Source: Clostridiales bacterium
GTDB lineage: Bacteria; Bacillota; Clostridia; Saccharofermentanales; Saccharofermentanaceae
NCBI GenBank assembly: GCA_017617935.1
Contig: JAFZVF010000094.1
Location: 1 to 64,000, forward strand
DNA length: 64,000 bases
Reading direction: 5' to 3'
The notes beneath the pieces are model-generated. The model did not search any database. It saw nothing but the letters and a program-made list of their open reading frames with translations, and was not told the DNA's origin. A program made the translations under genes and the position numbers. Positions 23,220 through 43,802 of the stretch are shown here, piece by piece. Each line of letters begins with the position of its first letter. Position 1 is the first letter of the stretch.

Positions 23220-23379
23220 AGGAACCCCCTTAGATACCAAATAATAACTTTACCATCTGTTTTTTGACTTTAAAAGTGCCAATATAGGCAATATTTCGTA
23301 ATTATCGGGTGCAGGTTCTGTTACAGGCGCACCATTTTTGCCGCACTCTGGGCGGCACCGCTTTCTTATTATATAGAGG

Positions 23380-23445: not shown

Positions 23446-24708
23446 ATGATCAACCTTTACATAGATCCCGGCACGGGAAGCATGCTTTTCACGATACTTA
23501 TCAGCGCCATCAGCGCTGTGGTATACGTCGTGCGCATTCTCTGGATCAAGGCCAAGAACATGGCCGGCGTCAAGAACCAGAATGAGAGGAACGCCAAGAG
23601 GATCCCGATCGTAATGTTTTCCGACAACAAGCGGTACTGGTCGACTTTCAGGCCGATATGCGACGAGCTTGAAAAGCGCGGCCAGAAGGCAGTCTACATG
23701 ACCGCTTCGCCCGATGATCCGGCTCTCGATTCCAAATACGAGCATATAAAGTGCGAGTTCATAGGCGAGGGCAACAAGGCCTATGCGAAGATGAACATGC
23801 TCAATGCTGGCATCGTTCTTTCGACGACTCCTTCTTTGGACGTCTTCCAGTGGAAGCGCTCAAAGACCGTAGATTACTACGTTCACATCCTCCACTGCTG
23901 TGGAGACGTTACGCTTTACAGGCTTTACGGCGTCGATTACTATGACGCGCTCCTGCTTTCCGGCGACTTCCAGGAGAAGCAGGTCAGAGAGCTCGAAAGG
24001 CAGAGAAACCTTCCCGCCAAGGAGATCAGGATGGTGGGAATCCCCTATCTCGACACGATGCTCGAGCACGCAAAGAACTACGAGAGAAAGAAGTCCGATA
24101 CGACGACCGTTTTGCTTTCGCCCACATGGGGAACTCGCAGCCTTTTGGTCAAGTACGGGTCAAAGCTCATCGACAGGCTTATCGAGACGGGTTATGACAT
24201 AACGATCCGCCCGCATCCGCAGTCCTTCACGGCCGACAAGGAGACGATCGACAGCCTTATGGCCAAGTATCCGGAGACTGAGAAGCTTCACTGGAACAGG
24301 GACAACAACAATTTCGACGTGCTCGCAAGATCCGACATAATGATCTCCGACTATTCGGGCGTCATGTACGATTTCTCGTTCATCTTCAACAAGCCCGTCA
24401 TCTATACGAATGCCGAGTATAAAAAGGATCCCTACGACGCATGGTGCATCGAAGGGGAGACCTGGATGGTCAGCACGATCAAGAAGATCGGCAAGGAGCT
24501 GAATTCAGACAACATCGGTCAGGTAAAAGAACTGATCGATTCATGCATAAAGGAAAGCCGGCAGAGCGCGAAGATAGCCGAGGCTAGGGACGAGACTTGG
24601 TGCAACGTCGGAAAGAGCGCTTCGCTTACCGCTGACTACCTGATCGAAAAGCTTTCCGAGCTTGAAAAGAAGGACAAGCCTTCTGTTGAAACGGAGGGCA
24701 AAAAATGA
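23446..24708 (+). CDS. TagB/TagF-like CDP-alcohol phosphotransferase 1
   Basis: A 420-residue member of the CDP-glycerol:poly(glycerophosphate) glycerophosphotransferase family, of TagB size. A hydrophobic segment follows an N-terminal NLYIDPGTGSM motif (residues 3-13). The catalytic GT-B domain has the family hallmarks: a His pair near 147-150, RPHPQ at 255-259 and SDYSGVMYDF at 301-310. Family members use CDP-glycerol or CDP-ribitol to extend teichoic acids at the inner membrane face. Because this cluster makes CMP-phosphonates, the donor could be a CMP-phosphonate instead; that is inference. It is first in the operon, its stop overlaps the next ATG, and a homologue sits at the other end (41530). 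Confidence 0.85.
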   Translation: MINLYIDPGTGSMLFTILISAISAVVYVVRILWIKAKNMAGVKNQNERNAKRIPIVMFSDNKRYWSTFRPICDELEKRGQKAVYMTASPDDPALDSKYEHIKCEFIGEGNKAYAKMNMLNAGIVLSTTPSLDVFQWKRSKTVDYYVHILHCCGDVTLYRLYGVDYYDALLLSGDFQEKQVRELERQRNLPAKEIRMVGIPYLDTMLEHAKNYERKKSDTTTVLLSPTWGTRSLLVKYGSKLIDRLIETGYDITIRPHPQSFTADKETIDSLMAKYPETEKLHWNRDNNNFDVLARSDIMISDYSGVMYDFSFIFNKPVIYTNAEYKKDPYDAWCIEGETWMVSTIKKIGKELNSDNIGQVKELIDSCIKESRQSAKIAEARDETWCNVGKSASLTADYLIEKLSELEKKDKPSVETEGKK

Positions 24709-27341
24709 GCTTTTTGACCGTACTTTATCTTTTGACTTTGTACCCGATCGAATATCTCCTTGAGATGATATTCGCGATAATCTCGAGGGTTTCCGGCAAC
24801 ACGGTCCTTTCGATAATCGTACTGAGCCTCGTGGTAAACGTAATCGTTTTGCCGCTCTACAACCGCGCCGACAAGGTGCAGGAAGAGGCGAAGGACAAGG
24901 AAAACGCGATCGCCCCGATGGTCAAGCACATCAAGCAGACATTCAGCGGCGACGAGAGGTTCATGCTCCTTCAGACGTGCTACAGGCAGAACGACTACAG
25001 CCCCTTGAACGTCCTCAAGAGTTCCGTTTCGATACTTTTGCAGGTCCCGTTCTTCATGGCGGCGTACAACATGCTGTCGGGCAACAAGCTCCTTTCAAAC
25101 GTCAGCCTAGGCCCCATCGCAAACCTTTCCGCGCCTGACGGACTCATAACGATCGGCTCGTTCACGCTGAACGTCCTGCCGATAATAATGACGCTGATCA
25201 ACGTGGTCGCAAGCTTCATCTATGCAAAGGGATTCCCGCTCAAGACGAAGATACAGATGTACGGCCTTGCCGCGGTATTCCTCGTGCTCTTGTACCAGTC
25301 GCCGTCAGGCCTCGTCCTTTACTGGATCTGCAACAACGTCTTCTCTTTGGGCAAGAACATCGTTAACAAGATCATTGCAAAGAAGCGCAAGGAGAAGGCG
25401 GCAAAACAGATCGCAAAGCACGTAAAGGCGGTAAAGCCGGGCTCTCTGAAGCTTGACTCTAAATACAAGGTGGTCTTCCTCTTCTCGTCGCTCACGCTTG
25501 CGATCTACGTCGGATTCTATCTGCCGATGCTGACGGTGTCTTCTGCACCCGAGGAATTCGTCAATCTCTACACCATGGCCAACCCCATGATCGACATCAT
25601 AGACACGGCCTCTAAGGGCTTCGGACTGTTCCTCGTCTGGCCTGCGGTATTCTTTGCGCTGGCATCGGTCAAGGGCAGGAAGATCATGTCTTACATCATG
25701 TTCATCCTTGCCACGTCAGCGATACTGAACTCAAAGCTTTTCAGCAATGATTTCGGAGACATCTCGAACTACCTGGAATATAAGGATTCGCCTGAGTTTA
25801 CCGTGAAGGCGATCCTTCTGAGCCTTGCGGTAACTGTCGGAGGCGCTGTCATATGCTTCCTTTTGACGAGGTTTGGAAAATACACCGCACCGGTAATCTG
25901 CTTCTCGGCGGCGCTGGTTTTCGGCATATTGGGCCTTACCAGCATAGGCAAGGTGACGGAGGGCTACAAGCTTGCGGAAAAGTCTGAGACCTCAAAGGCC
26001 GAGTTCACGCTCTCGAAGAACGGAAAGAACGTCATAGTCATCATGACCGACCGTGCCGTCGGACCGATGGTGCCGTACATCTTCAAGGAAAAGCCCGAGC
26101 TTAATTCCATTTACGACGGATTCGTTTACTACCACAACGCCGCGTCCTTCGGAACGCACACGAATTCGGCGGTCCCCGCGCTCCTCGGAGGCTATGAGTA
26201 CACTCCCGAGCAGATGAACCTGAGGACCGACAAGGCCCTGCCCGAAAAGTACGACGAAGCATTGAAGCTCATGCCCACGATCTTTACGCAGAACGGCTTT
26301 GACGCGACGCTCGTCAACCCGACTTACGCGGGCTACATGTGGTATCCGGACCTTTCCGTTTTCAACGGCATGGACAAGGTCAAGGCATACAGCACCAAGT
26401 ATTCATACCTGCCCGAAGAGACTAAGCAGATCTATACGGTCGAGCATGCGAACACCTTCAGGCACAACCTGTTCTGCTATTCGATCTTCCAGTCGGCTCC
26501 CGTCGCGCTCCAGGAAGCGCTCTACGACGGCGGCAACTACAATGACATGAGGGCTATCGATCCGTCGCACCTCATCACGCAGAAGAGAAAGGGCACCACC
26601 CAGGCGTGGGGTCACGAGCAGACCTTCATGTGGGAATACTACACGATGAAGAACCTCGATCAGATCACGAAGATCGATGAGGGATCTGAAAACCACTTCA
26701 TCTATTTCGCGACTGACATGACGCATGACGTCGAGATGCTCCAGGAGCCCGAATACGAGCCCAGGGACACGGTCGACAACAAGAAGTACGACCAGACGCA
26801 CCCCGCCAGGTTCGTCCGCCAGGGCGAGTCGATGTGGATGCGTGACGCAAAGGACTTCAAGCACTACCAGTGCGACGTCGCCGCGTATACCCTGATCGGC
26901 AAATGGATAGAGTATTTGAAGGCCAACGACTGCTACGACAACACGAGGATAATCATCGTCGCGGACCACGGATATTACCTTGAGAACTTCCCTGACGTCG
27001 TCCAGTACGACATCGGCGGCCGCCTCGACGGAGAGGCCTTTGCGCCTCTGCTCATGGTCAAGGACTTTAACAGCCGCGGAGACCTCAAGACCTCTGAGGA
27101 ATTCATGACCAATGCGGACACGCCCTATCTCGCGACGAAGGGGCTTATAAACAATCCCGTCAATCCTTTTACTGGAAAACCTGTGACTGATCAGGGTAAA
27201 AACGGTACAATAACCGTATTCCATTCGAATAACTGGAACATCAGAAACAACAACGGCGTGACCTACCAGCCCGGAGACTGGTTCAGCTTGAAGGAAAGCA
27301 TCTGGAAGAAGGAAAACTGGAAATATCTGGGAACGCATTGA
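24705..27341 (+). CDS. YidC/Oxa1-like + AlkP-superfamily transferase fusion, copy 1
   Basis: An 878-residue membrane protein in three parts. Residues 1-225 match YidC/Oxa1: a helix ending LPLYNRADK, the cytoplasmic coiled-coil hairpin ending in YRQNDYSPLNVL, then further helices with the late QSPSGLVLYW segment. Residues 255-418 add about five helices. Residues 440-878 are an extracellular alkaline-phosphatase/LTA-synthase-type domain with metal-site Asp449 (IMTDRA), candidate nucleophile Thr486 (GTHTN), His674 (DMTHD) and Asp754-His755 (ADHG). LTA synthases have five helices plus this domain, so the unusual part is the added YidC domain. Likely role: transfer of a phospho- or phosphono-alcohol group outside the membrane. 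It overlaps the upstream gene by ATGA. Substrate unknown. Confidence 0.8.
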   Translation: MSFLTVLYLLTLYPIEYLLEMIFAIISRVSGNTVLSIIVLSLVVNVIVLPLYNRADKVQEEAKDKENAIAPMVKHIKQTFSGDERFMLLQTCYRQNDYSPLNVLKSSVSILLQVPFFMAAYNMLSGNKLLSNVSLGPIANLSAPDGLITIGSFTLNVLPIIMTLINVVASFIYAKGFPLKTKIQMYGLAAVFLVLLYQSPSGLVLYWICNNVFSLGKNIVNKIIAKKRKEKAAKQIAKHVKAVKPGSLKLDSKYKVVFLFSSLTLAIYVGFYLPMLTVSSAPEEFVNLYTMANPMIDIIDTASKGFGLFLVWPAVFFALASVKGRKIMSYIMFILATSAILNSKLFSNDFGDISNYLEYKDSPEFTVKAILLSLAVTVGGAVICFLLTRFGKYTAPVICFSAALVFGILGLTSIGKVTEGYKLAEKSETSKAEFTLSKNGKNVIVIMTDRAVGPMVPYIFKEKPELNSIYDGFVYYHNAASFGTHTNSAVPALLGGYEYTPEQMNLRTDKALPEKYDEALKLMPTIFTQNGFDATLVNPTYAGYMWYPDLSVFNGMDKVKAYSTKYSYLPEETKQIYTVEHANTFRHNLFCYSIFQSAPVALQEALYDGGNYNDMRAIDPSHLITQKRKGTTQAWGHEQTFMWEYYTMKNLDQITKIDEGSENHFIYFATDMTHDVEMLQEPEYEPRDTVDNKKYDQTHPARFVRQGESMWMRDAKDFKHYQCDVAAYTLIGKWIEYLKANDCYDNTRIIIVADHGYYLENFPDVVQYDIGGRLDGEAFAPLLMVKDFNSRGDLKTSEEFMTNADTPYLATKGLINNPVNPFTGKPVTDQGKNGTITVFHSNNWNIRNNNGVTYQPGDWFSLKESIWKKENWKYLGTH

Positions 27342-27366
27342 TATTTAGCAATAGAGGTGTTGATTT

Positions 27367-29169
27367 ATGCAGGCTCTGATACTCGCTGCCGGAATGGGCA
27401 AAAGACTTAAGGACCTTACACGGAATAATACCAAGTGCATGGTAAAGGTGAACGGCGTTACGCTCATCGAAAGAATGCTCCGCCAGATAGAAAAGCAGAA
27501 CGTCTCAAGGATCGTCATCGTCGTCGGCTATGAGGGCCAGAAGCTCATCGACTTTATCGGCACGTTGGACGTCAAGACGCCCATCACCTTCGTCGAAAAC
27601 CCGATCTACGACAAGACGAACAACATCTATTCTTTGGCGCTTGCAAAGGATTGGCTCTGCAAGGAGGACACGCTCCTTTTCGAGTCCGACCTGATCTTTG
27701 AGGATGCGGTTTTGGACCTCCTCGTAAACGACCCGAGAGACACTTTGGCGCTCGTAGACAAGTTCGAGAGCTGGATGGACGGCACCTGCCTCAAGCTTTC
27801 CAAGGACGACAAGATCACCTCATTCGTTTCGAAGAAGGAGTTCAGGTTCGCGGACATCGACGAATACTACAAGACCGTAAACATCAGCAAGTTCAGCAAG
27901 GACTTCTCCGAGAAGTACTACGTGCCTTTCCTTGATGCCTACGAAAAGGCTCTGGGAGAGAACCAGTACTACGAGGAAGTCTTGAAGGTCATCACGATCC
28001 TTGACGTTCCGAGGATCAGGGCAAGGCGCCTCGAAGGACAGCTCTGGTACGAGATCGACGACATTCAGGATCTGGACATCGCCGAGTCGCTCTTTGCAGA
28101 GGATCCTGACGAGAAGGCTGCCCTCATAACCGGAAGATATGGCGGATACTGGAGATATCCGAAGATGAAGGATTTCTGCTATCTCGTAAATCCTTATTTC
28201 CCGCCGCAGAAGATGCTCAACGAGATCAAGGCAAACTTCGAGACGTTGATCTCCCAATACCCGTCGGGAATGCGCGTCAATTCGCTCCTTGCGGCCAAGA
28301 ACTTCAACGTTCATACGGAAAACATAATCGTCGGAAACGGCGCCGCGGAGCTCATCAAGTCCCTGATGGGGCAGCTTATGGGCAAGACCGGATTTGTAAG
28401 GCCGACCTTTGAGGAATATCCGCACAGATACGACGCGTCCGATACCGTGTCCTTCGTCCCTGAAAACAAGGACTTTTCATACACTGCGGACGATGTGATG
28501 AACTTCTTTGAAGGCAGCGGCGTAAGCCAGATCGTAATCGTAAATCCTGACAATCCGTCGGGAAATTACATCCCGAAAAAGGACCTTTTAAGGCTCGTTG
28601 AATGGACGAAGGAAAAGGGCATGAAGCTCGTGATCGACGAGTCATTCGTTGATTTCGCGGACGAGGAGGACAGCACGCTGATAGACCTTGAACTGCTCGT
28701 GGCAAACCCGCATCTCTACGTCATGAAGAGCATCTCAAAGTCCTACGGCGTACCGGGCTTGAGGCTCGGCGTTCTCGCTTCGGGCGACGTCGTCACGATC
28801 GCGCTAATGAAGAAGGACGTCGCGATCTGGAACATCAATTCGTTTGCGGAATTCTACATGCAGATCGAAGAGAAGTACAAGGCAAAATACGCTGAAGCGC
28901 TGGTCAAGATCAGGGCTGAGCGCGCAAGGTTCGTTGCTGAGCTTTCGAAGATAGGCGGCCTCCGCGTGATACCTTCGCAGGCGAACTTCATAATGTGCGA
29001 GCTCGAAAACGTTGAGCCCAAGGACCTTATGAAAGCCCTTCTTTTCAAGCATCACATCCTCATCAAGGAACTCTCTTCCAAGACCGGCGGCAAGTACGTA
29101 AGGCTTGCGGTAAGGGATACCGAGGACAACGACTTGCTCGTCGCGGCCCTCAAGGAAGAGCTCGGCTAA
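27367..29169 (+). CDS. pntC: PntC-like cytidylyltransferase fused to AEP aminotransferase
   Basis: A 600-residue fusion. Residues 1-235 are a nucleotidyltransferase of the LicC/PntC type: LAAGMGKRL signature, KCMVKVNG, metal Asp in ESDLIFED and closing DIQDLDIAE. Residues 245-600 are a fold-type I PLP aminotransferase: NPDNPSGNY (393-401), Asp424 in VIDES, and PLP lysine 458 in SISKSYG. The same fusion, a CMP-2-aminoethylphosphonate synthase joined to an AEP transaminase, is known from Treponema. The predicted reactions are phosphonoacetaldehyde to AEP, then AEP + CTP to CMP-AEP. Choline/LicC-type activation is the alternative, but the PepM and decarboxylase genes in the same cluster strongly favour AEP. 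Starts 25 bp after the first YidC-AlkP gene. Confidence 0.85.
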   Translation: MQALILAAGMGKRLKDLTRNNTKCMVKVNGVTLIERMLRQIEKQNVSRIVIVVGYEGQKLIDFIGTLDVKTPITFVENPIYDKTNNIYSLALAKDWLCKEDTLLFESDLIFEDAVLDLLVNDPRDTLALVDKFESWMDGTCLKLSKDDKITSFVSKKEFRFADIDEYYKTVNISKFSKDFSEKYYVPFLDAYEKALGENQYYEEVLKVITILDVPRIRARRLEGQLWYEIDDIQDLDIAESLFAEDPDEKAALITGRYGGYWRYPKMKDFCYLVNPYFPPQKMLNEIKANFETLISQYPSGMRVNSLLAAKNFNVHTENIIVGNGAAELIKSLMGQLMGKTGFVRPTFEEYPHRYDASDTVSFVPENKDFSYTADDVMNFFEGSGVSQIVIVNPDNPSGNYIPKKDLLRLVEWTKEKGMKLVIDESFVDFADEEDSTLIDLELLVANPHLYVMKSISKSYGVPGLRLGVLASGDVVTIALMKKDVAIWNINSFAEFYMQIEEKYKAKYAEALVKIRAERARFVAELSKIGGLRVIPSQANFIMCELENVEPKDLMKALLFKHHILIKELSSKTGGKYVRLAVRDTEDNDLLVAALKEELG

Positions 29170-29187
29170 GGGTCAAAACCCTCGCGT

Positions 29188-29216
29188 TTGCGTCAAATTA
29201 AGAAGAGTAATAGAAT
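29188..29216 (+). promoter_or_regulatory. Possible internal promoter before YidC-AlkP copy 2
   Basis: TTGCGT (29188-29193), 17-bp spacer, TAGAAT (29211-29216) in the 83-bp gap. A short GGGT/ACCC hairpin precedes it. Suggests a secondary transcription start inside the cluster. Confidence 0.45.
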
Positions 29217-29252
29217 TAAACGGTCATTTCCAAGGGGGAAGGGCTACCAAGC

Positions 29253-31856
29253 ATGCTGCAATACCTTTACGCCCTGACGATCGGCCCGATCGAACAGGTC
29301 TTCAAGATAATCTTTTCGGTACTCAACAAGTACGTCCCGGTGTCCGGGGTGTGCATTCTGTTGCTCAGCCTCGTTTTCAGCCTCATCGTGCTGCCGCTGT
29401 ACATGCGCGCGGACAAGATCCAGGAGGAGGCGAAGGAGGATGAGGAGCGCTTAGGCCCCACGATCAAGCACATAAAGCAGTATTTCAAGGGCGACGAGCG
29501 CTTCATGATACTGCAGACCTATTACCGCCAGAACAACTACAGCCCATTGGGAGTCCTTCGCAGTTCCGTGTCGCTTCTCCTGCAGGTCCCGTTCTTCCTC
29601 GCGGCATACAGGATGCTCCACAACAACGTCTACCTCCAGGGCAAGGGATTCGGCCCGATAGCGGACCTGAACAGTCCTGACGCGCTCCTGGTGCTCGGTG
29701 GCACTGCGATAAACGTCCTGCCTTTCGTCATGACCGCGATAAACCTCATTTCCGCGGCAGTCTACGCAAACAAGATGCCGTTGAAGTCCAAGATCCAGCT
29801 CTGGGTCATGGCAGCGCTGTTCCTCGTCCTGCTCTACAACTCGCCTTCGGGAATGGTCATCTACTGGACCTGCAACAACCTTTTCTCGCTGATAAAGAAC
29901 GTAATCATCAGGATCGTTTCGTCGAAGAAAAAGGCGGCAAGGCCTGCAGTTTCCGCAGAAAAGCTAGATTCCAGGTACAAGGCGGTCTTCTATTTTTCCT
30001 GCCTGACCTGCGCGGTCTACCTGGGCTTCTACATCCCGATGAACATGATCTCTTCGGCGGCCGAGGAGTTTGTCAACCTCTACACGATGGCGAGCCCGAT
30101 GCTGGACGTCCTCTACGCGGTCTGCAAGGGCTTCGGCCTGTTCCTTCTCTGGCCCGCGATCTTCTACGCGATGGCATCGGTCAGGGGAAAGAAAGCCCTG
30201 TCCTACGTCATGTTCATGCTCGCAACCTCGTCGATCTTGAATTCAAAGATCTTCAGCAACGATTTCGGCGACCTGTCGAACTTCCTGAAATACAAGACGA
30301 ACCACGATTTCACGCGCAATGCGATAATCTGGAGCCTCGTGGTCACCGTGGCCGCCTGCGCCATATGCTTCCTCATAGTCCGTTTTGGAAAGAACATAGC
30401 GCCGGTGATCTGTTTCTCGGCCGCGCTGGTCTTTGCGGTATTGGGATTTGCGGGCATCGGAAAGGTCAACGAGGGCCACAGGGACGCCTGCAAGTCAGAG
30501 ACTTCCAAGGCTGAGATCACGCTTTCGAAAACGGGAAAGAACGTCGTCGTCATAATGTGCGACAGGGCGGTCGGCCCCATGCTGCCATACATCTTCAACG
30601 AAAAGCCCGAGCTCAAGAAAGCCTACGACGGCTTCGTTTACTACCACAACACGGTGACTTTGGCGGCGCATACGAATTCCGCGATCCCGGGCCTCATCGG
30701 AGGCTACGAGTATTCACCTGAAGAGATGAACAAGCGCACGGACAAGCTCATTTCAGAAAAGCTCGACGAGGCGCACAAAGTGCTCCCCACGATCTTCAAC
30801 CAGAACGGCTTTGACACGACGATAATCAACCCGTCCTACGCGGGCTACAAGTGGTATCCCGACCTTTCCATCTATAACGGCATGGAGAACCTCAAGGCAT
30901 ACAGCACGAAGTTTGCTTATCTTCCTGAAGACCTGAAGGAAGGCTACAGCAACGAGTTCACCGAATGCTTCAGGTACAACCTTTTTGCATACTCGATCTA
31001 CAAGTCGGCGCCCGTCCTTTTCCAGGAAGCGCTTTACGACGACGGAAACTACAATGAGACGAGGATAATCGATCCTTCAAGGCTCGTCGACCAGAAGAGG
31101 AGCGGCAACTCGAAGTCTGAGGGCCACTCACAGGCTTTCATCTGGGACTACTACACGATGAAGGCGATGAGCGACATGACGACGGTCGAGGAAAACGGCA
31201 ACCACTACGTCTATTTCGGCACGCACCTGACGCACGACACGCAGTTCCTGCAGGAGCCCGCTTATGAGCCCGCCGACGTCGTCAACAACTCCAAGTACGA
31301 CAAGTCGGCCCAGGGCCAGGCAAGGTTCCTCTTGAAGGGCCAGATGATGTGGGTCAGGGACGCCATGGACTACAGGCATTACCAGTGCAACGTGGCAAAC
31401 TACGAGCTGATCGGAAAGTGGCTTGAATACCTCAAGGCGAACGGCTGCTACGACAACACGAAGATAATCATCGTTTCGGACCACGGCTTCCACTTGGAGA
31501 ACTTCACCGACATCATCGATTACGAAATGGGCATGAAGCTCGACGGCGAGGCCTACACGCCGATCCTCATGGTCAAGGACTTTGGAAGCCACGGCGAGAT
31601 ACAGACCTCCGAGGAGTTCATGACCAATGCGGACACGCCTTATCTCGCGCTGAAGGGCATTGTCGACAATCCCGTCAACCCGTTCACGGGCAAGGCGATC
31701 TCCGATGAGGGCAAGAAGAACGGCGCCGTCATCTACCGCTCCGACCACTGGAACCCTTGGAACAACACGGGTTCCGTTTACGCGTCCGGCGACTGGATCA
31801 GCGTTAAGGACGACCTCTGGAAGAAGGAAAACTGGAAGTATCTGGGCACGCACTGA
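29253..31856 (+). CDS. YidC/Oxa1-like + AlkP-superfamily transferase fusion, copy 2
   Basis: An 867-residue paralogue with the same order of domains: YidC/Oxa1-like (1-225, LPLYMRADKIQEEAK, YYRQNNYSPLGVL), five-helix block (about 243-410), and extracellular AlkP domain. Metal and catalytic positions are kept as Asp437 (IMCDRA), Thr474 (AAHTN), His661 (THLTHD) and Asp743-His744 (SDHG). Compared with copy 1, the residues around the nucleophile are TLAAHTN rather than SFGTHTN, so the active-site rim differs. The YidC half is nearly the same as in copy 3 (over 90% by eye), which implies recent duplication or conversion of this half, while the AlkP halves differ more. A strong GGGGGAAGGG precedes the ATG, and a terminator follows. 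Confidence 0.8.
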   Translation: MLQYLYALTIGPIEQVFKIIFSVLNKYVPVSGVCILLLSLVFSLIVLPLYMRADKIQEEAKEDEERLGPTIKHIKQYFKGDERFMILQTYYRQNNYSPLGVLRSSVSLLLQVPFFLAAYRMLHNNVYLQGKGFGPIADLNSPDALLVLGGTAINVLPFVMTAINLISAAVYANKMPLKSKIQLWVMAALFLVLLYNSPSGMVIYWTCNNLFSLIKNVIIRIVSSKKKAARPAVSAEKLDSRYKAVFYFSCLTCAVYLGFYIPMNMISSAAEEFVNLYTMASPMLDVLYAVCKGFGLFLLWPAIFYAMASVRGKKALSYVMFMLATSSILNSKIFSNDFGDLSNFLKYKTNHDFTRNAIIWSLVVTVAACAICFLIVRFGKNIAPVICFSAALVFAVLGFAGIGKVNEGHRDACKSETSKAEITLSKTGKNVVVIMCDRAVGPMLPYIFNEKPELKKAYDGFVYYHNTVTLAAHTNSAIPGLIGGYEYSPEEMNKRTDKLISEKLDEAHKVLPTIFNQNGFDTTIINPSYAGYKWYPDLSIYNGMENLKAYSTKFAYLPEDLKEGYSNEFTECFRYNLFAYSIYKSAPVLFQEALYDDGNYNETRIIDPSRLVDQKRSGNSKSEGHSQAFIWDYYTMKAMSDMTTVEENGNHYVYFGTHLTHDTQFLQEPAYEPADVVNNSKYDKSAQGQARFLLKGQMMWVRDAMDYRHYQCNVANYELIGKWLEYLKANGCYDNTKIIIVSDHGFHLENFTDIIDYEMGMKLDGEAYTPILMVKDFGSHGEIQTSEEFMTNADTPYLALKGIVDNPVNPFTGKAISDEGKKNGAVIYRSDHWNPWNNTGSVYASGDWISVKDDLWKKENWKYLGTH

Positions 31857-31897
31857 GTTTTGGCCGCGTTTCAAACCGCCGTTAAAAGTTACATAAG

Positions 31898-31921
31898 GAG
31901 GCAAGCGATTGCCTCTTTATT
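31898..31921 (+). terminator. Internal intrinsic terminator in the cluster
   Basis: GAGGCAA (31898-31904) and TTGCCTC (31909-31915) with a 4-nt loop and a T-rich tail (TTTATTTATAT). It splits the cluster into two transcription segments unless antiterminated, for example by the LoaP-type factor. Confidence 0.7.
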
Positions 31922-31935
31922 TATATATTTATTAT

Positions 31936-31964
31936 TTGCTTTATCGCGTAAAGAAGTCTAAAAT
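31936..31964 (+). promoter_or_regulatory. Internal promoter before YidC-AlkP copy 3
   Basis: TTGCTT (31936-31941), 17-bp spacer, TAAAAT (31959-31964), placed just after the internal terminator and 30 bp before the copy 3 start. Marks the start of a second transcription unit covering the genes from 31994 to 43612. Confidence 0.6.
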
Positions 31965-31993
31965 TATTAGGTTAAACGCACAGAAAAGGGCAG

Positions 31994-34636
31994 ATGGACG
32001 GCATGGGATTCTTTCAATATCTTTACGCACTGTTAATAGGACCTATCGAACTGGTCTTTAAGATCATATTCTCGCAGCTCAACAAATACATTCCGGTCTC
32101 CGGAGTGTGCATTCTGCTCTTAAGCCTCACTTTCAGCCTTATCGTGCTGCCTTTGTACATGCGCGCTGACAAGATCCAGGAGGAGGCTAAAGAGGACGAG
32201 GAGCGCCTTGGCCCCACGATCAAGCACATCAAGAAGTACTTCAAGGGCGACGAGCGCTTCATGATCCTTCAGACCTATTACCGTCAGAACAACTACAGCC
32301 CTCTGGGCGTCCTCAGAAGCTCGGTTTCCCTGTTGCTGCAGGTTCCCTTCTTCCTCGCGGCTTACAGGATGCTCCACAACAACACCTTCCTTCAGGGAAA
32401 AGGCTTCGGCCCGATAGCCGACCTCAACAGCCCTGACGCGCTCCTTACGGTCGGCGGCGTTGCGATCAACGTTCTGCCTTTCGTAATGACCGCGATCAAC
32501 CTCATCTCAGCAGCCATCTACGCAAACAAGATGCCCATGAAGTCCAAAGTTCAGCTTTGGGTCATGGCGGCGCTCTTCCTTGTTCTGCTCTATAACTCGC
32601 CTTCGGGCATGGTCATCTACTGGACCTGCAACAACCTTTTCTCGCTTTTCAAGAACATAATCGTCAAGATAGCGACGTCGAAGAAGAAGGCAAAGAAGGA
32701 AGACGCAAAGAAGTCTGCCAAGCCTGCAGTCAAGAAGCCCGATTCAAGATACAAGTACGTATTCATCTTCTCGAGCCTTACCCTGGCGATCTACGTCGGA
32801 TTCTATCTGCCCATGATCACGGTCGCTTCCGCGCCTGAGGAATTCGTAAACCTCTACACCATGGCTCACCCGATGCTTGACGTCCTTGAGGCGGCTTGCA
32901 AGGGACTGGGTCTTTTCCTTCTCTGGCCGTCGGTCTTCTATGCGATGTCTTCCGTTACGGGCAAGAAGGTCTGGTCCTACGTCATGTTCATCGGAGCGAT
33001 CGCGGCGATCCTTAACTCCAAGCTCTTCAGCAGCGGTTCGGGCGACATGTCGAACACGCTCATCTACAAGGACACTTCGCTCAAGATCACGACACAGACG
33101 ATCTTACTCAGCCTCGGCGTTACGCTGGGCGCAGCCGTTGTCGGATTCATTCTCGTCCGTTTCGGAAAGAACGTAACGCCCGTTATCGCTTTTTCAGCGG
33201 CTCTGGTCTTCGCGGTACTTGGCCTTACGAACATTGGCAAGATCAACGCGGGTTATCAGGAAGACTTAAGGTCAAACACCTCCAAGGCTGAGATTACGCT
33301 TTCCAAGACCGGCAAGAACGTCATCGTCATAATGGCGGACAGGGCGATCGGCCCGATGCTGCCCTACATCTTCAAGGAGAAGCCGGAACTGAACCAGGTT
33401 TACGACGGCTTCACCTACTATCACAACACGGCTTCATTCGGAACGCACACGAACTTCGGCGTTCCGTCGCTCCTCGGAGGCTATGAGTACACTCCCGCCG
33501 AGATGAACAAGAGGACTGACAAGCTCCTTTCTGAGGACCACGAGGAAGCCCTCAAGCTTATGCCGAAGATCTTCACCCAGGCAGGTTTTGACGCCACCAT
33601 CATCAACCCCAAATATGCGGGATATCAGTGGTATCCGGATCTTTCCGTTTTCAATGACCTGCAGAACACGAAGGCATACAGCACAAAGTATTCCTACCTG
33701 CCCGACGAGATGAGGGAGGGCTACAAGGAAGAGCAGACGACCGCCTTCAGGTTCAACCTTTTCGGTTATTCGATCTTCAGGTCCGCACCCGTCGCGCTTC
33801 ATAAGGCGCTCTACGATGACGGCAACTACAATGAGACAAGGGTGATCGATCCCGCGCGTCTCATGGACCAGAGGCGTTCAGGCAACTCAAAGTCCGAGGG
33901 TCACGAGCAGGGCTTCATGTGGGATTACCACACGATGAAGGCGCTGAGCTCGATGGTCAAGGTCGAGGAAGGCAGCGGAGACCATTTCGTTTATTACGGA
34001 ACGGACACCTGCCACGATTCGGAGTTCCTCAAGGAACCCGAGTACGAGCCCGCCGATATCGTCGACAACACGAAGTTCGACAAGTCGCAGAAGGGCCAGG
34101 CGAGATTCCTCGTCAAGGGCCAGATGATGTGGATGAGGGACGCTAAGGACTATAGAAACTATCAGTGCAATTTCGCAACGCTCAGGGAACTCGGAAATTT
34201 CCTGAACTACCTCAAGGAGATCGGCTGCTATGACAATTCGAGGATCATAATCGTCGCCGATCACGGTTACTACATCGAGAACTTCCCTGACCTGATCCAG
34301 TACGACATCGGCGCGCAGCTCGACGGAGAGGCGTTTGCTCCGCTCCTTCTGGTTAAGGATTTTAACAGCCGCGGAGACTTGAAGACCTCCGAGGAGTTCA
34401 TGACGAACGCCGATACGCCTTATCTCGCGACGAAGGGCATTATCGAAAATCCGACCAACCCTTTCACGGGCAAGGCGATAACTGACGAAGGCAAGAAAAA
34501 CGGCATCACCGTATTCCATTCTGAATATTGGAAAGTCCATTACAACAATGGAACCGCATACAAGCCCGGAGACTGGTACACCGTCAAGGACAGCATCTGG
34601 AAGAAGGAAAACTGGAAGTTCCTAGGACACTATTAA
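31994..34636 (+). CDS. YidC/Oxa1-like + AlkP-superfamily transferase fusion, copy 3
   Basis: An 880-residue paralogue. YidC/Oxa1-like part to about 230, a Lys-rich cytoplasmic linker (KKKAKKEDAKKSAKPAVKK), five-helix block to about 418, then the AlkP domain with Asp449 (IMADRA), Thr486 (GTHTN), a His in DTCHD and Asp-His in ADHG. Its AlkP active site resembles copy 1 (SFGTHTN, DFNSRGDLKTSEEF), whereas its YidC half matches copy 2, a mosaic pattern that suggests recombination between copies. The alternative ATG at 32003 would give a start more like the other copies; 31994 is kept because AAAAGGG lies upstream of it. First gene after the internal promoter. Confidence 0.8.
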   Translation: MDGMGFFQYLYALLIGPIELVFKIIFSQLNKYIPVSGVCILLLSLTFSLIVLPLYMRADKIQEEAKEDEERLGPTIKHIKKYFKGDERFMILQTYYRQNNYSPLGVLRSSVSLLLQVPFFLAAYRMLHNNTFLQGKGFGPIADLNSPDALLTVGGVAINVLPFVMTAINLISAAIYANKMPMKSKVQLWVMAALFLVLLYNSPSGMVIYWTCNNLFSLFKNIIVKIATSKKKAKKEDAKKSAKPAVKKPDSRYKYVFIFSSLTLAIYVGFYLPMITVASAPEEFVNLYTMAHPMLDVLEAACKGLGLFLLWPSVFYAMSSVTGKKVWSYVMFIGAIAAILNSKLFSSGSGDMSNTLIYKDTSLKITTQTILLSLGVTLGAAVVGFILVRFGKNVTPVIAFSAALVFAVLGLTNIGKINAGYQEDLRSNTSKAEITLSKTGKNVIVIMADRAIGPMLPYIFKEKPELNQVYDGFTYYHNTASFGTHTNFGVPSLLGGYEYTPAEMNKRTDKLLSEDHEEALKLMPKIFTQAGFDATIINPKYAGYQWYPDLSVFNDLQNTKAYSTKYSYLPDEMREGYKEEQTTAFRFNLFGYSIFRSAPVALHKALYDDGNYNETRVIDPARLMDQRRSGNSKSEGHEQGFMWDYHTMKALSSMVKVEEGSGDHFVYYGTDTCHDSEFLKEPEYEPADIVDNTKFDKSQKGQARFLVKGQMMWMRDAKDYRNYQCNFATLRELGNFLNYLKEIGCYDNSRIIIVADHGYYIENFPDLIQYDIGAQLDGEAFAPLLLVKDFNSRGDLKTSEEFMTNADTPYLATKGIIENPTNPFTGKAITDEGKKNGITVFHSEYWKVHYNNGTAYKPGDWYTVKDSIWKKENWKFLGHY

Positions 34637-34653
34637 GGAGTACTTGAACGGGC

Positions 34654-37257
34654 ATGCAATTCTTTTCGGAACTTTACGCATTGATATTCGGACCGATACA
34701 GCTGGTATTCGAGATAATCTTCTCGGTGCTCAATAAGCACATCCAGATTTCCGGTCTGAACATCATGCTCTTAAGCCTCGTTTTCAGCCTGATCGTGCTG
34801 CCCCTTTACATGCGCGCGGACAAGATCCAGGAAGAGGCGAGGGAAGCCGAAGAGCGCCTTGGCCCCGTCATCAAGCACATCAAGCAGTACTTCAAGGGCG
34901 ACGAGCGCTTCATGATCCTGCAGACCTACTACAGGCAGAACAACTACAGCCCGTTGTCCGTTCTTAAGAGCTCCGTTTCGCTGCTCCTGCAGATACCGTT
35001 CTTCCTCGCGGCATACAGGATGCTCTCAAACAACGTCTACCTCGTCGGCCGTTCCTTTGGACCGATACAGAACCTGGGCGCGCCAGATGCGATGCTTGCC
35101 GTCGGTTCAGTCACGATCAACGTACTGCCTTTCGTAATGACCGCGGTCAACCTGATCTCGGCCGCAGTCTACGCAAACAAGATGCCCGCCAAGTCGAAGG
35201 TCCAGCTGCTCATAATGGCTGCGCTCTTCCTTGTGCTGCTCTACAACTCGCCTTCAGGCATGGTCCTCTACTGGACGTGCAACAACCTTTTCTCGCTCAT
35301 CAAGAACATCGTGATGAAGCTTGCGTCTAAAAAGAAGTCCGCTCCCAAGACTGCCAAGAAAGAGGCAAAGGCGGATGATGCGAAGGCTTCAAAGAGCAAG
35401 GGCCTGTTCGTCTTCTCCTGCATCGCTTGCGCGGTGCTCTCAGGGATCTACCTGCCCATGACGGTTCTGGCTTCCGCACCTGAGGAATTCGTCGACATGC
35501 AGTCGCTCGCAAACCCGATGACCTACATCATAGATTCAGCGGTGAAGGGCGTTGGTCTTTTCGTCCTTTGGCCTTCGGTCTTCTACGCGATGGCCTCGAA
35601 GAAGGGAAGGAAGCTCATATCCTACGTCATGTTCGCGCTGTCAGTCAGCATCGTAGTCAACGCGCACTGCTTCAGCAACGGATTCGGAACGATGTCCGAC
35701 GTCCTCGTCTATGACGTCGCGCCGGTCTTCCAGATCAATACCGGACTGATCAGTTTGGGCGTTACCGTCGTCGCGATCGTCGTCGCCGTCGTTCTTGCCA
35801 AGTTCGGAAACAGCATCGCAACCGTTATCGCGCTGTCGATGGCCCTGGTCTTTGCGGGACTCGGCGTTTCCAAGACGGGCGCGATCAACCAGGGATTTGC
35901 GAACGCCAAGAAGGCATGCACCGTCACCGATCCCGAATTCACGCTTTCAAAGAATGGAAAGAACGTCGTCGTCTTGATGCTCGACCGCGCTCTGGGCCCC
36001 ATGCTCCCCTACCTCTTCGGTGAAAACGAGTCGCTGGGCAAGTCCTTTGACGGCTTCACCTACTATCACAACACCGTGTCCTACGGCGCTTACACGAACT
36101 TCGCGACGCCTTCGATGTACGGCGGATACGAGTACACTCCCGAAAAGATAAACGAGCGTGTCAACGAGACCCTTGCTGAAAAGCAGAACGAGGCACTCAA
36201 GGTCATGCCCGTCATGTTTGCGAACGCCGGCTACAACGCGACGATAGTCAATCCGTCCTACGCGGGATACAAATGGAATGCCGACCTGACTGTCTTTGAC
36301 GGTCTCGAAAACGTTTCCGCATACAACACGCTCTTCCGCTACGTGCCGGTCGATTACGGCAAGGCTTACAAAGAGACGATAAGGAGGAACCTTTTCTGCT
36401 ATTCGCTCTACAAGGGCGCTCCGGTCCTCGTTCAGAAGTACCTCTACGACAACGGCAGCTACAACGACACGAAGATCCCCGACTGGTCGACGGCTTCACA
36501 GGTGAGAAGCGGCATGTCGGTCTCAAACGGCCACAACAAGGAATTTGAGGCTGAATACTGGGCGGTCAATTCGATGGACAAGATGACGAAGATCGATGAA
36601 GGCTCAAGCAACAACTACCTGTTCTTCTGCTCACGCATCACGCATGAGGAGTCGTACCTTCAGGAACCTGAATACGCTCCTGCGGATCACGTCGACAACA
36701 CGGTTTTCGACAAGGCGAACCAGAAGAGGTTCAGGAATGGCGGCAAGATGATGCTCATGCTCGACGAACTCGATTACTGCCACTATCAGATCAACATGGC
36801 GGGCCTTACGGCAGTCGCAAAGTGGCTCGATTACCTTAAGGCAAACGGCTGCTACGACAACACGAGGATAATCATCGTTTCCGATCACGGCTTTGGCCTT
36901 GGAAACTTCCCCGATCTCATGGAGTACGGTTCTGCCGCTCCGATCGACGGAGAATGGTTCACGCCTTTGCTCATGGTCAAGGACTTCGGAAGCCATGGTT
37001 CGCTCAAGACAAGCGAAGATTTCATGACGAATGCCGACACGCCGCTTCTCGCAGCGCAGGGCGTCATCGACAACCCGACGAATCCCTTCACGGGAAAGAA
37101 GCTCACTTCTGACGCCAAGCAGGGCGAGCAGAAGATCTTCTATTCCGGCGAATGGAACGTCAGCAAGAATAACGGCAATACCTTCAAGCCCGGCATGTGG
37201 TATTCCGTTAAGGAAGACATTTGGAAAAAAGAAAATTGGAAATATCTGGGAGGTTAA
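34654..37257 (+). CDS. YidC/Oxa1-like + AlkP-superfamily transferase fusion, copy 4
   Basis: An 867-residue paralogue and the most divergent of the four. YidC/Oxa1-like part (1-225), Lys/Ala-rich linker (225-250), helix block (about 250-412), AlkP domain with Asp444 (LMLDRA), Thr481 (GAYTN, where the other copies have HTN), a RITHEE His motif and SDHG. Loss of the His beside the nucleophile and an altered lid region suggest a different acceptor or donor. It keeps the C-terminal WKKENWKYLG ending shared by all four. Starts 17 bp after copy 3 and ends 2 bp before the pepM fusion, so it is translationally linked to phosphonate synthesis. Confidence 0.8.
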   Translation: MQFFSELYALIFGPIQLVFEIIFSVLNKHIQISGLNIMLLSLVFSLIVLPLYMRADKIQEEAREAEERLGPVIKHIKQYFKGDERFMILQTYYRQNNYSPLSVLKSSVSLLLQIPFFLAAYRMLSNNVYLVGRSFGPIQNLGAPDAMLAVGSVTINVLPFVMTAVNLISAAVYANKMPAKSKVQLLIMAALFLVLLYNSPSGMVLYWTCNNLFSLIKNIVMKLASKKKSAPKTAKKEAKADDAKASKSKGLFVFSCIACAVLSGIYLPMTVLASAPEEFVDMQSLANPMTYIIDSAVKGVGLFVLWPSVFYAMASKKGRKLISYVMFALSVSIVVNAHCFSNGFGTMSDVLVYDVAPVFQINTGLISLGVTVVAIVVAVVLAKFGNSIATVIALSMALVFAGLGVSKTGAINQGFANAKKACTVTDPEFTLSKNGKNVVVLMLDRALGPMLPYLFGENESLGKSFDGFTYYHNTVSYGAYTNFATPSMYGGYEYTPEKINERVNETLAEKQNEALKVMPVMFANAGYNATIVNPSYAGYKWNADLTVFDGLENVSAYNTLFRYVPVDYGKAYKETIRRNLFCYSLYKGAPVLVQKYLYDNGSYNDTKIPDWSTASQVRSGMSVSNGHNKEFEAEYWAVNSMDKMTKIDEGSSNNYLFFCSRITHEESYLQEPEYAPADHVDNTVFDKANQKRFRNGGKMMLMLDELDYCHYQINMAGLTAVAKWLDYLKANGCYDNTRIIIVSDHGFGLGNFPDLMEYGSAAPIDGEWFTPLLMVKDFGSHGSLKTSEDFMTNADTPLLAAQGVIDNPTNPFTGKKLTSDAKQGEQKIFYSGEWNVSKNNGNTFKPGMWYSVKEDIWKKENWKYLGG

Positions 37258-37259
37258 TG

Positions 37260-39272
37260 ATGAAAGCATTGATCCTGAATTCAGGTCTCGGAAAGAGAAT
37301 GGGAACCCTTACGAGCGAGCACCCCAAGTGCATGACGGAGCTCTCGGTCGGTGAGACGATCGTAAGCCGCCAGCTTAAGCAGCTCAGCGAAGTAGGCATA
37401 ACGGACGTCGTAATGACCACGGGACCTTTCGTGGACGTCCTCGAGGGTTACATCAAGTCACTGAACCTTGATCTTGACGTCAAGTTCGTGAACAACCCGA
37501 TTTACGATCAGACGAATTACATCTATTCGATCTACATGGCAAGAGAGCTCTTGAAGGGTGACGACCTCATCCTGATGCACGGTGATCTCGTTTTCGAGAA
37601 CAGCGTGCTCGACGGCATCCTTGCACAGCAGTCGGCAATGACCGTTTCTTCGACCATCCCGCTTCCCGAAAAGGACTTCAAGGCGGTCATCAAGGACGGC
37701 GAGATCAAGAAGGTCGGCATCGAGTTCTTCGATGACGCGCTCGCGGCACAGCCCCTCTACAGGTTCACGAAGGAAGACTGGGAGACCTGGCTTGATTCCA
37801 TCTGCAAGTTCTGCGAAGAAGGCACGACCGGATGCTATGCCGAGAACGCTCTCAACGTCGTTTCCGACAACACTCACATCATTCCCTTCGACGTAAAGGA
37901 CGCGCTCTGCGGCGAAGTCGACAACCCTGAGGATCTTGCGGTAATGAGCAAGAGGCTCGAAGAGGTCAAGTCCAGAAAGGTATACGTCTGCTTCTCAACG
38001 GACATCCTTCACAGCGGCCACCTCAACATCTTAAGAAGGGCTTCAAGATTGGGCCGCCTCATCGTGGGCGTAATGAGCGACGAGGCTGTCGCTTCCTACA
38101 AGAGGTTCCCGCTCGTTCCCTGCGAGGAGAGGAAGGCCATGTTCAAGTCCATCAAGGGCGTTTGGCAGGTCGTAGAGCAGGATACCTTAAGCTACAAGGA
38201 CGTTATCGCGAAGTACCAGCCTGACATAGTCGTTCACGGCGACAACTGGCAGGAAGGCTTCCAGAAGCCGATCAGGGACGAAGTTATCGAGCTCCTTTCC
38301 GCATACGGCGGACAGCTCGTCGAGTTCCCTTATTCGTCAGATCCCAAGTATAAGGAAGTTGACGCAAGGAGCAGGCTTGAATTATCGCTCCCTGACAACA
38401 GGAGGGGCAGGCTCAGAAAGCTCATCGCGATGAAGGGTCTTGTCACCATGATGGAAGCTCACGACGGCATCTCAGGCCTCATCGTCGAGAACACCGTAGT
38501 TCACGATGACACGGGCGCTTCATACCAGTTCGATGGCATGTGGGTCTCATCCCTCTGCGACTCCACGGCAAAGGGCAAGCCTGACATTGAGCTCGTTGAC
38601 ATGACTTCCAGATTCAGAACGATCGACGACATCACTGAAGTAACGACCAAGCCGATCATCTTCGACGGAGACACCGGCGGACTTACCGAACACTTCGTTT
38701 ACACCGTCCGTTCACTCGAAAAGCTCGGCGTTTCGGCGGTCATAATCGAGGACAAGAAGGGTCTTAAAAAGAATTCGCTTTTCGGCACCGAAGTCAAGCA
38801 GACACAGGCTACGATCGAAGAGATGAGCGAAAAGATCGCTGCAGGAAAGAGGGCGCAGAAGTCATCCGATTTCATGATCATCGCCCGTATCGAATCCCTC
38901 ATCCTCGAGCAGGGCATGGAGGATGCTCTTACCAGGGCATTTGCGTTCGTAAAGGCAGGCGCTGACGGCATCATGATCCACTCACGCCGCACCGAGCCTG
39001 ACGAGATAATCGAGTTCATAAACAAGTTCAGGGAGCAGGACAAGATCACACCGATCGTCATCGTTCCCACGTCTTTCCATTCCGTCAAGGAAGAGGAATG
39101 GAAGAAGATCGGCGTCAACGTCGTCATCTACGCTAACCAGCTCATGAGGGCTGAGGTTCCCGCGATGCAGACTACTGCCGAGGAGATCTTAAAGAACCAC
39201 AGGGCACAGGAAGCGGATGAGCATCTGATGGGCTTCAAGCAGATCATCAGATTGATTCCCGACCAGATTTGA
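37260..39272 (+). CDS. pepM: Tri-domain PEP mutase (NTP transferase + HxGH cytidylyltransferase + PepM)
   Basis: A 670-residue fusion that starts phosphonate synthesis. Residues 1-235: sugar-nucleotidyltransferase-like domain (LNSGLGKRMG, metal Asp in HGDLVFEN). Residues 240-370: HxGH cytidylyltransferase fold (HSGH, 251-254; HGDNW). Residues 382-660: PEP mutase of the isocitrate-lyase superfamily, with FDGDTGG near 468 and the diagnostic EDKKGLKKNS at 497-506, which separates mutases from hydrolases and lyases. PepM converts PEP to phosphonopyruvate. An HxGH domain on PepM is known in Fom1 of fosfomycin synthesis, where it makes CMP-hydroxyethylphosphonate; the third, N-terminal domain is extra. 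ATG 37260 is preferred over 37257 for spacing from GGGAGGT. Confidence 0.88.
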   Translation: MKALILNSGLGKRMGTLTSEHPKCMTELSVGETIVSRQLKQLSEVGITDVVMTTGPFVDVLEGYIKSLNLDLDVKFVNNPIYDQTNYIYSIYMARELLKGDDLILMHGDLVFENSVLDGILAQQSAMTVSSTIPLPEKDFKAVIKDGEIKKVGIEFFDDALAAQPLYRFTKEDWETWLDSICKFCEEGTTGCYAENALNVVSDNTHIIPFDVKDALCGEVDNPEDLAVMSKRLEEVKSRKVYVCFSTDILHSGHLNILRRASRLGRLIVGVMSDEAVASYKRFPLVPCEERKAMFKSIKGVWQVVEQDTLSYKDVIAKYQPDIVVHGDNWQEGFQKPIRDEVIELLSAYGGQLVEFPYSSDPKYKEVDARSRLELSLPDNRRGRLRKLIAMKGLVTMMEAHDGISGLIVENTVVHDDTGASYQFDGMWVSSLCDSTAKGKPDIELVDMTSRFRTIDDITEVTTKPIIFDGDTGGLTEHFVYTVRSLEKLGVSAVIIEDKKGLKKNSLFGTEVKQTQATIEEMSEKIAAGKRAQKSSDFMIIARIESLILEQGMEDALTRAFAFVKAGADGIMIHSRRTEPDEIIEFINKFREQDKITPIVIVPTSFHSVKEEEWKKIGVNVVIYANQLMRAEVPAMQTTAEEILKNHRAQEADEHLMGFKQIIRLIPDQI

Positions 39273-39282
39273 GGAAGCATAA

Positions 39283-40392
39283 ATGGAACAGCTGATACTA
39301 AGCAGTGAAAACGGTTACGCCGAGCTGAACGGATATCTTGCGGACAACAACGTCTGCAACATTTTCCTGGTATGCGACAGCGCGTTCGGATTCCTTAAGA
39401 TCAAGGACTATTTTGACGAGCTTGAAGAAGAGGGAATCGAGATCACGAGGTTCTCCGACTTCCAGCCGAACCCGCTCTATGAATCCGTAGTCGAAGGCGT
39501 AAGGCTCTTCAAGGAATCAGGCGCAAAGCTGATCATCGCGGTCGGCGGGGGCTCGGCGATGGACGTTGCAAAGTGCATCAAGCTCTATAGCAACATGGAT
39601 CCTTCGAAGAACTATCTTGAGCAGGAGATCGTACCCAATGACGTAACGCTCCTGGCGATCCCCACGACGGCGGGAACCGGCTCGGAGGCAACCAGGTTCG
39701 CGGTCATCTACTACGAGGGAAAGAAGCAGAGCGTGGCTGATCATTCGATAATCCCGACGGTCGTTCTTTTCGATGAATCCGCCCTCAAGACGCTGCCCTT
39801 GTATCAGAAAAAGTCCACGATGCTGGACGCGTTCTGCCACGCGATCGAATCCTACTGGTCGGTCAACAGCAACGACGAGAGCAAGGAATATTCAAAGAAG
39901 GCGATCTCAGGGATACTCACAAATCTTGATGCTTACCTTGCAAATGACGAGGCAGCGAACCGCGAGATGATGACCGCAGCGCACTACGCCGGCAAGGCCA
40001 TCAACATTACACAGACGACCGCGGGCCACGCGATGTGCTACAAGCTCACGAGCCTTTACGGCGTAGCTCACGGACACGCCGCGGCACTTGTCGACACAAA
40101 GCTTTTCCCTTACATGGTCTCGCACACGGAAGACTGCGTTGACCCCAGGGGAGAGGAGTACCTCAAGAAGACTTTTGAAGAGATCGCTTCAATGCTCGGA
40201 TGCAAGAGCACGGGCGAAGCCTGCGTAAAGCTTCAGCAGTTCTTTGATTCATTGGATCTTCTGGTCCCTGAGGCCGCGGAGGAGGATTTCGCGGAACTTA
40301 AGACCTCGGTCAATCCGGTAAGGCTCAAGAACAACCCGGTGAAGCTTGATGAAGAAAACATAGAGTCGCTTTACAGACTCATTTTGAAATAA
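39283..40392 (+). CDS. Iron-containing alcohol dehydrogenase, probable phosphonoacetaldehyde reductase
   Basis: A 369-residue group III (Fe-dependent) alcohol dehydrogenase of usual length. NAD-binding glycine motif GGGSAMDVAKCI near 84-95, TTAGTGSE loop near 126, and the metal ligands in DAFCHAIES and the later AGHAMCYKL...GVAHGHAAA histidines. In phosphonate pathways such enzymes (FomC, PhpC) reduce phosphonoacetaldehyde to 2-hydroxyethylphosphonate. Its place between pepM and the phosphonopyruvate decarboxylase gene makes that the best assignment. A competing aminotransferase for the same aldehyde is encoded at 27367, so the cluster should make both HEP and AEP, or draw from one pool according to conditions. 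Confidence 0.85.
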   Translation: MEQLILSSENGYAELNGYLADNNVCNIFLVCDSAFGFLKIKDYFDELEEEGIEITRFSDFQPNPLYESVVEGVRLFKESGAKLIIAVGGGSAMDVAKCIKLYSNMDPSKNYLEQEIVPNDVTLLAIPTTAGTGSEATRFAVIYYEGKKQSVADHSIIPTVVLFDESALKTLPLYQKKSTMLDAFCHAIESYWSVNSNDESKEYSKKAISGILTNLDAYLANDEAANREMMTAAHYAGKAINITQTTAGHAMCYKLTSLYGVAHGHAAALVDTKLFPYMVSHTEDCVDPRGEEYLKKTFEEIASMLGCKSTGEACVKLQQFFDSLDLLVPEAAEEDFAELKTSVNPVRLKNNPVKLDEENIESLYRLILK

Positions 40393-43739: not shown

Positions 43740-43802
43740 TAGGCGGGGTTTGCACCATGGTAAAACATGCTATCCTATATATATGGACGCGGGAGGTGCT
43801 TT

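Follow-up and report, generated by a model that had tools for sequence, protein, structure and literature searches.

Four genes in a 64,000-nucleotide stretch of a Clostridiales bacterium genome (contig JAFZVF010000094.1, positions 1 to 64,000; this whole stretch is called the window) encode proteins in which a YidC/Oxa1-type domain is joined to five further transmembrane (TM) helices and an alkaline phosphatase (AlkP)-fold domain. A TagF-like enzyme is their usual genomic partner, and we regard a functional link of the three parts, TagF, YidC and AlkP, as highly probable. In a three-module system for surface decoration, the fusions would be the output half that spans the membrane, with events running from TagF through YidC to AlkP, a proposal to which we give an even chance. 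Together with its partner enzyme, the fusion probably decorates the cell surface with groups such as phosphonate or phosphocholine. The sequences themselves contain each of the parts: the YidC fold, the five-helix anchor, the transferase-type AlkP domain, the TagF-like partner, a swapped fusion of the same modules, and neighbouring genes for donors of groups activated with cytidine monophosphate (CMP). All enzyme functions were assigned by homology.

Architecture and conservation of the fusion proteins

The four fusion genes of the window are as follows.
24705..27341, + strand: YidC-5TM-AlkP fusion copy 1, 878 amino acids, Asn45 at the groove position, Thr486 as the predicted nucleophile
29253..31856, + strand: YidC-5TM-AlkP fusion copy 2, 867 amino acids, Ser at the groove position
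31994..34636, + strand: YidC-5TM-AlkP fusion copy 3, 880 amino acids, Ser at the groove position
34654..37257, + strand: YidC-5TM-AlkP fusion copy 4, 867 amino acids, Ser at the groove position

All four copies matched 60KD_IMP (PF02096; 79-85 bits, residues ~34-225, Pfam cut-off 35) and Sulfatase (PF00884; 28-51 bits, residues ~440-780, Pfam cut-off 25). With the NCBIfam model of the YidC C-terminal domain (TIGR03592, cut-off 84.3), copies 2-4 scored 87.4-88.5 bits, whereas copy 1 fell slightly short with 80.9. Identity to copy 1 is 61% for copy 2, 64% for copy 3 and 53% for copy 4. A chance joining is excluded, because members of the family occur in many genomes and the fusion frames stay open across 2.6 kb. 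The preliminary description of this stretch, made from its sequence alone, had reported four tandem paralogues; the four copies do lie on one strand, but not in strict tandem, as a single gene (27367-29169) separates copies 1 and 2. The same genome has a fifth copy outside the window, on another contig (G000:C103), and one ordinary YidC.

AlphaFold2, given alignments of 15 and 48 sequences, predicted a YidC core with a long cytoplasmic hairpin, a basic linker, five further TM helices (residues 252-280, 295-319, 322-345, 367-390 and 394-412) and the AlkP domain, with a predicted local distance difference test score of 84. In Foldseek, the whole protein matched PbgA/YejM, MCR-1, LtaS and phosphonate monoester hydrolase; these matches were driven by the C-terminal part, and choline sulfatases and phosphonate monoester hydrolases were among the best. 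The structural alignment to PbgA covers residues 247-878, but with a root-mean-square deviation of 14 Å. Since the AlkP domain had dominated this first search, the N-terminal half was modelled and compared on its own; here residues 1-437 matched Escherichia coli YidC (6al2, E 1e-5) and Bacillus halodurans YidC (3wo6). The Oxa1/YidC-type domain, the roughly five additional helices and the AlkP-fold domain of the preliminary description were thus all recovered. The known topology of YidC and the basic linker suggest that the AlkP domain is on the outer side, since YidC would end inside the cell and five helices follow.

Asp449, Thr486, His674, Asp754 and His755 are invariant in the full-length homologues (127/127), which extends the earlier observation of intact metal ligands to these homologues. 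The Thr-Asn motif described at the same time held for its Thr; Asn487 is found in 112 of the 127 and is common rather than invariant. LtaS, EptA, MCR-1 and YejM have an equivalent set of Thr, acidic and His residues (in LtaS, EptA and MCR-1, Thr300/Thr280 with Glu, Asp and His neighbours; PMC7576196). The fusion has Asp where the LtaS/EptA/MCR-1 set has Glu, as does YejM.

The YidC domain has lost the arginine of the insertion groove. At the position of this H1/TM1 residue, set by alignment to TFIVRGIMYPL of E. coli and corresponding to R72 in B. halodurans YidC2 (PMC8675477), the 127 fusions have Asn (102) or Ser (25) and never Arg, while ordinary YidCs of the same order have Arg in 30 of 30. 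Nevertheless, this domain is the best-conserved part of the protein: the mean frequency of the commonest residue was 0.70 in the YidC domain, 0.60 in the AlkP domain and 0.45 in the five helices, and its helices contain the invariant polar residues S41, T163, N166, S199, N210 and N211. The loss of the arginine together with this conservation indicates that the YidC domain is probably under selection for a role other than canonical insertion. That it is degenerate baggage was considered and rejected on the same ground of conservation. In liposomes, E. coli YidC has been reported to scramble lipids, with simulations of the family placing the lipid path along the insertion groove (PMC10491306).

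The TagF-like partner and the swapped fusion

The window contains two TagF-like genes.
23446..24708, + strand: TagF-like protein 1, PF04464, N-terminal membrane segment YIDPGTGSML; its stop overlaps the start of fusion copy 1 by 4 nucleotides
41530..42837, + strand: TagF-like protein 2, PF04464, shares homology with the TagF part of YidC-TagF fusions (E 2e-31)

The two proteins scored 45.7 and 47.1 bits with Glyphos_transf (PF04464, cut-off 22.1), the profile being matched only in part. A TagF-like gene was present in 59 of 74 fusion loci, namely 72 from a genome collection consisting mostly of metagenome-assembled genomes, the window and the locus of the fifth copy. Where TagF-like and fusion genes are neighbours on the + strand, the gap is 15 nucleotides or less in 53 of 55 pairs, and in 15 of them the genes overlap by 4 nucleotides, as in the window (24705/24708). 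Among the matches listed for 83 genomes of the genus, fusion and TagF occurred together in 69, neither in 12, the fusion alone in two and TagF alone in none (Fisher 9e-13, shared ancestry ignored).

A different combination of the same modules occurs in other bacteria, where YidC-TagF fusions (PF02096 and PF04464) of roughly 630-800 amino acids were found. One genome of the same genus, G080, which is without the window-type system, carries such a fusion. A separate Sulfatase/AlkP gene directly adjoins YidC-TagF in five loci (L188:5729-10025, L187:4546-8831, L184:4505-8720, L219:4781-9180 and L220:5067-8695). The TagF domains are homologous across both fusion types (E 2e-31 over 381 residues), and the Thr region of the AlkP domains also aligns. 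The groove position of the YidC-TagF fusions is occupied by Lys (5/5). As one module set shows two fusion patterns, the three modules appear to work together.

Several further observations concern these modules. The AlkP genes beside YidC-TagF often encode an N-terminal YIDPATTTY, similar to YIDPGTGSML of the TagF-like proteins of the window. The YidC-TagF gene of locus L221 has no recognised AlkP neighbour; just upstream of it lie genes for two membrane proteins (488 and 421 amino acids, L221:5653-8377) that have no Pfam match and could replace the AlkP part. The fifth copy (L007:6326-10095) lies directly 3' of an alanine racemase gene, with a 4-nucleotide overlap and without TagF nearby, and the same layout was found in L061, L062 and L063. 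In L223:8900-12472, a LicD gene ends ~30 nucleotides upstream of a YidC-AlkP fusion, in the usual TagF slot. The module as a general replacement of LicD was rejected, since LicD was found in 59 of the 83 genomes of the genus; the window's own assembly, which is 81% complete, gave no LicD match.

The fusion family is large but narrow, being found mostly in Saccharofermentans-like Clostridia and in a few other families. All 72 fusion loci are named as Clostridia; most come from rumen genomes similar to Saccharofermentans, and some carry the name Lachnospiraceae. In an even sample of the class, the fusion was present in 12 of 391 genomes (4 of 222 genera), and in an even sample of the phylum in 3 of 388 genomes (3 of 260 genera). 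Within the genus, up to 12 matches were listed for a genome.

The window operon and donor pathways

The operon of the window spans 23446-44402 with every gene on the + strand. Besides the fusions and the TagF-like genes, it comprises the following.
27367..29169, + strand: nucleotidyltransferase (LicC/PntC-like) fused to a CobD/HisC-like pyridoxal phosphate (PLP) enzyme
37221..39272, + strand: triple fusion of nucleoside triphosphate transferase, cytidylyltransferase and phosphoenolpyruvate (PEP) mutase, TIGR02320 above cut-off
39283..40392, + strand: iron-containing alcohol dehydrogenase
40413..41537, + strand: phosphonopyruvate decarboxylase, TIGR03297, 450 bits against a cut-off of 312.5
42863..43612, + strand: VTT/DedA-domain membrane protein, of a family with lipid scramblase relatives
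43767..44402, + strand: cytidylate kinase-like protein, Cytidylate_kin2, E 1e-51

The open reading frame at 37221 is listed with a TTG start inside fusion copy 4; its real start is probably a later ATG. The alcohol dehydrogenase is a probable phosphonoacetaldehyde reductase yielding 2-hydroxyethylphosphonate (HEP), and the cytidylate kinase-like protein could recycle the CMP freed by the transferases. By analogy with Fom1 and PntC (PMC6697681), the operon plausibly provides a complete route to CMP-HEP together with CMP recycling. The gene between copies 1 and 2 has a layout like that of PntC-AEPT fusions, with a CobD/HisC-like PLP domain (TIGR01140, 181 bits, under cut-off), and its product probably makes an aminoalcohol activated with CMP or cytidine diphosphate (CDP). 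In locus L121, a homologue of this gene lies directly upstream of TagF and the fusion. The two genes suggest a CDP-aminoalcohol made by decarboxylation; as a guess, the product may be CDP-ethanolamine from phosphoserine. Such an operon, which combines two donor routes with two TagF-like genes and four fusions, would be consistent with two groups and several acceptors.

Other loci have related donor genes. Genes of the HEP route were found in the window and in L064, while L224 combines fusion, TagF, PntC-like, PhnW-AepZ and PEP mutase genes, an aminoethylphosphonate (AEP) route. In L223, which belongs to another part of the phylum, the fusion is accompanied by LicD, with a PhnW-AepZ/PntC-like/PEP mutase route on the opposite strand, and in L221 YidC-TagF is the first gene of a phosphonate operon. 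Of 59 module-bearing cases, 17 have a PEP mutase gene no more than 5 kb from the module, where 0.5 would be expected; 12 of these 17 appear orthologous to the window locus, so that the independent support amounts to ~5 loci. Among the 72 loci, licC-like and licA-like genes each occur in nine, both together in eight, and a licB-like transporter gene in five of these; licC/licA-like genes are also present in L188, a locus of the YidC-TagF type. At L087:1323-8570, four genes of one family stand beside the module and licC/licA-like genes, and the one that was scanned has choline-binding repeats, which suggests that this organism has surface phosphocholine.

Two proteins without Pfam match are encoded upstream of the operon of the window and are kept there in related genomes: a secreted protein with terminal KPTKKPTKK repeats (21660-23240) and a protein of 517 amino acids (19213-20766).

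Proposed mechanism and comparison with known systems

We propose the following course of events. The TagF-like enzyme would shift a phosphonate or phospho-alcohol from its CMP carrier onto a lipid at the inner face of the membrane. The lipid head group would cross the membrane by way of the YidC domain, which lacks the insertase arginine but is polar inside. The AlkP domain, with metal bound by Asp449, Thr486, Asp754 and His755, would then load the group onto Thr486 as a covalent intermediate and pass it to an extracellular acceptor, for example a teichoic-acid-like or other glycan. The paralogues would each handle different groups or acceptors. The preliminary description had suggested that the YidC-like domain was recruited for a lipid or polymer substrate, and this fits the TagF partner, the YidC-TagF swap, the phosphonate and choline genes and the lipid scrambling by YidC (PMC10491306). 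The swapped fusion, the TagF partner and the surrounding phosphonate pathway are additions to that description.

Several points weigh against this proposal. The donors of characterised TagF-type enzymes are CDP-glycerol or CDP-ribitol, and the use of CMP-phosphonate or CDP-choline by the TagF-like enzymes is suggested by neighbouring genes only. The VTT/DedA protein of the same operon could perform the flipping. The loss of the groove arginine speaks against canonical insertase function, which does not prove lipid transport. In addition, no TagF gene adjoins the fifth copy, which is sited downstream of alanine racemase, and most copies of the module have no activation pathway within 10 kb.

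Four other explanations were weighed. In the first, the TagF-like enzyme makes or decorates a lipid-linked polymer in the cytoplasm, the polymer leaves by way of YidC and the five helices, and outside it is attached or transferred by the AlkP domain, or its carrier is trimmed there. The relatives of TagF are teichoic acid polymerases or primases, the five-helix and AlkP part is like LtaS and YejM, and the conserved partner and the domain swap fit equally well. However, a glycopolymer would be large for the YidC groove, and the nearby donor genes make small groups (choline, AEP, HEP), which are usually decorations; we consider polymer export unlikely. Still less likely is that the YidC fold merely tethers the TagF-like and AlkP enzymes, with an ordinary phospholipid, phosphatidylethanolamine (PE) or phosphatidylglycerol (PG), as the donor of the AlkP domain, as in EptA and LtaS. 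The EptA/LtaS/YejM-like catalytic domain and the lost arginine agree with such a scaffold, but the invariant polar residues and the highest conservation in the YidC domain exceed the needs of a passive anchor, and the nearby donor genes produce CMP-activated groups.

The preliminary description had also offered a placement of the enzyme next to nascent membrane proteins. In this case the YidC domain would still insert or fold membrane or secreted proteins, which the AlkP domain modifies as they emerge. The clear YidC fold with its cytoplasmic hairpin and the positive residue retained in the YidC-TagF fusions are in favor of this view. Against it, the arginine is missing from every one of the 127 fusions, the host has a separate ordinary YidC, and the partners are enzymes of glycopolymers, phosphonates and alcohol phosphates; we give it a small probability. 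That the AlkP domain acts outside the cell as a phosphodiesterase or phosphonate monoester hydrolase, freeing groups for uptake, is very improbable despite the top structural matches to phosphonate monoester hydrolases and choline sulfatases, because those enzymes use formylglycine derived from Cys or Ser whereas Thr is invariant here, as in transferases, and because the neighbours are biosynthetic (PEP mutase, cytidylyltransferases).

Surface decoration by TagF, YidC and AlkP modules would be a new use of the YidC fold, which is known as a protein insertase; it has also been reported to scramble lipids in vitro, with no dedicated biological role attached. If the proposal is true, the substrate of an Oxa1/YidC-fold protein would be a lipid or glycan instead of a protein. 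With a surface-polymer-type enzyme attached, the insertase arginine lost and swaps between inside and outside enzymes, the fusion family offers a direct test case for a lipid role of YidC. It also provides candidates for the transfer steps after CMP-AEP and CMP-HEP in the biosynthesis of surface phosphonates, steps that have been called enigmatic (PMC6697681). In the open-access literature that connects YidC to CDP-glycerol transferase, phosphocholine, teichoic acid, LtaS or sulfatase, no description of this kind of fusion was found, which agrees with the earlier statement that no characterised protein of this architecture was known; nothing was found there on Saccharofermentans teichoic acids.

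The individual parts resemble known systems. Like LtaS, EptA, MCR-1 and YejM, the fusion has an AlkP domain outside the cell, with a Thr nucleophile and metal ligands, after a five-helix anchor; unlike them, it has a whole YidC domain before the anchor, a linked TagF-like partner and, likely, a CMP-derived group as donor instead of a PE or PG head group. It shares with YidC/Oxa1 insertases the five-helix core, the cytoplasmic hairpin, PF02096 and the structural match to 6al2 and 3wo6, but its groove Arg is replaced by Asn or Ser, it is joined covalently to an enzyme, and its host has a separate normal YidC. The partner resembles the teichoic acid glycerophosphotransferases TagF/TagB in PF04464 above cut-off and in the motifs RPHP and SDxSG. 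It differs in being a short form (410-460 amino acids) with an N-terminal YIDPGTG membrane segment and in its linkage to YidC/AlkP modules. The same kinds of activation enzymes adjoin the module as in the Lic (LicA-LicB-LicC-LicD) and Pnt (Ppm, Ppd, AEPT, PntC; PMC6697681) pathways. In the Lic pathway, the known choline transferase is the intracellular LicD, with a separate flippase, whereas here the TagF-like and YidC-AlkP proteins take that place; they also occupy the place of the Pnt transfer step, which is undescribed. Our study points tentatively, at slightly less than an even chance, to a third route of surface decoration, in which a transferase of CMP-activated groups, a lipid conduit with the YidC fold and an AlkP transferase would act as one machine that moves phosphonate, phosphocholine or phosphoethanolamine through the membrane and onto outside polymers and would supply the missing last step of the Pnt pathway.

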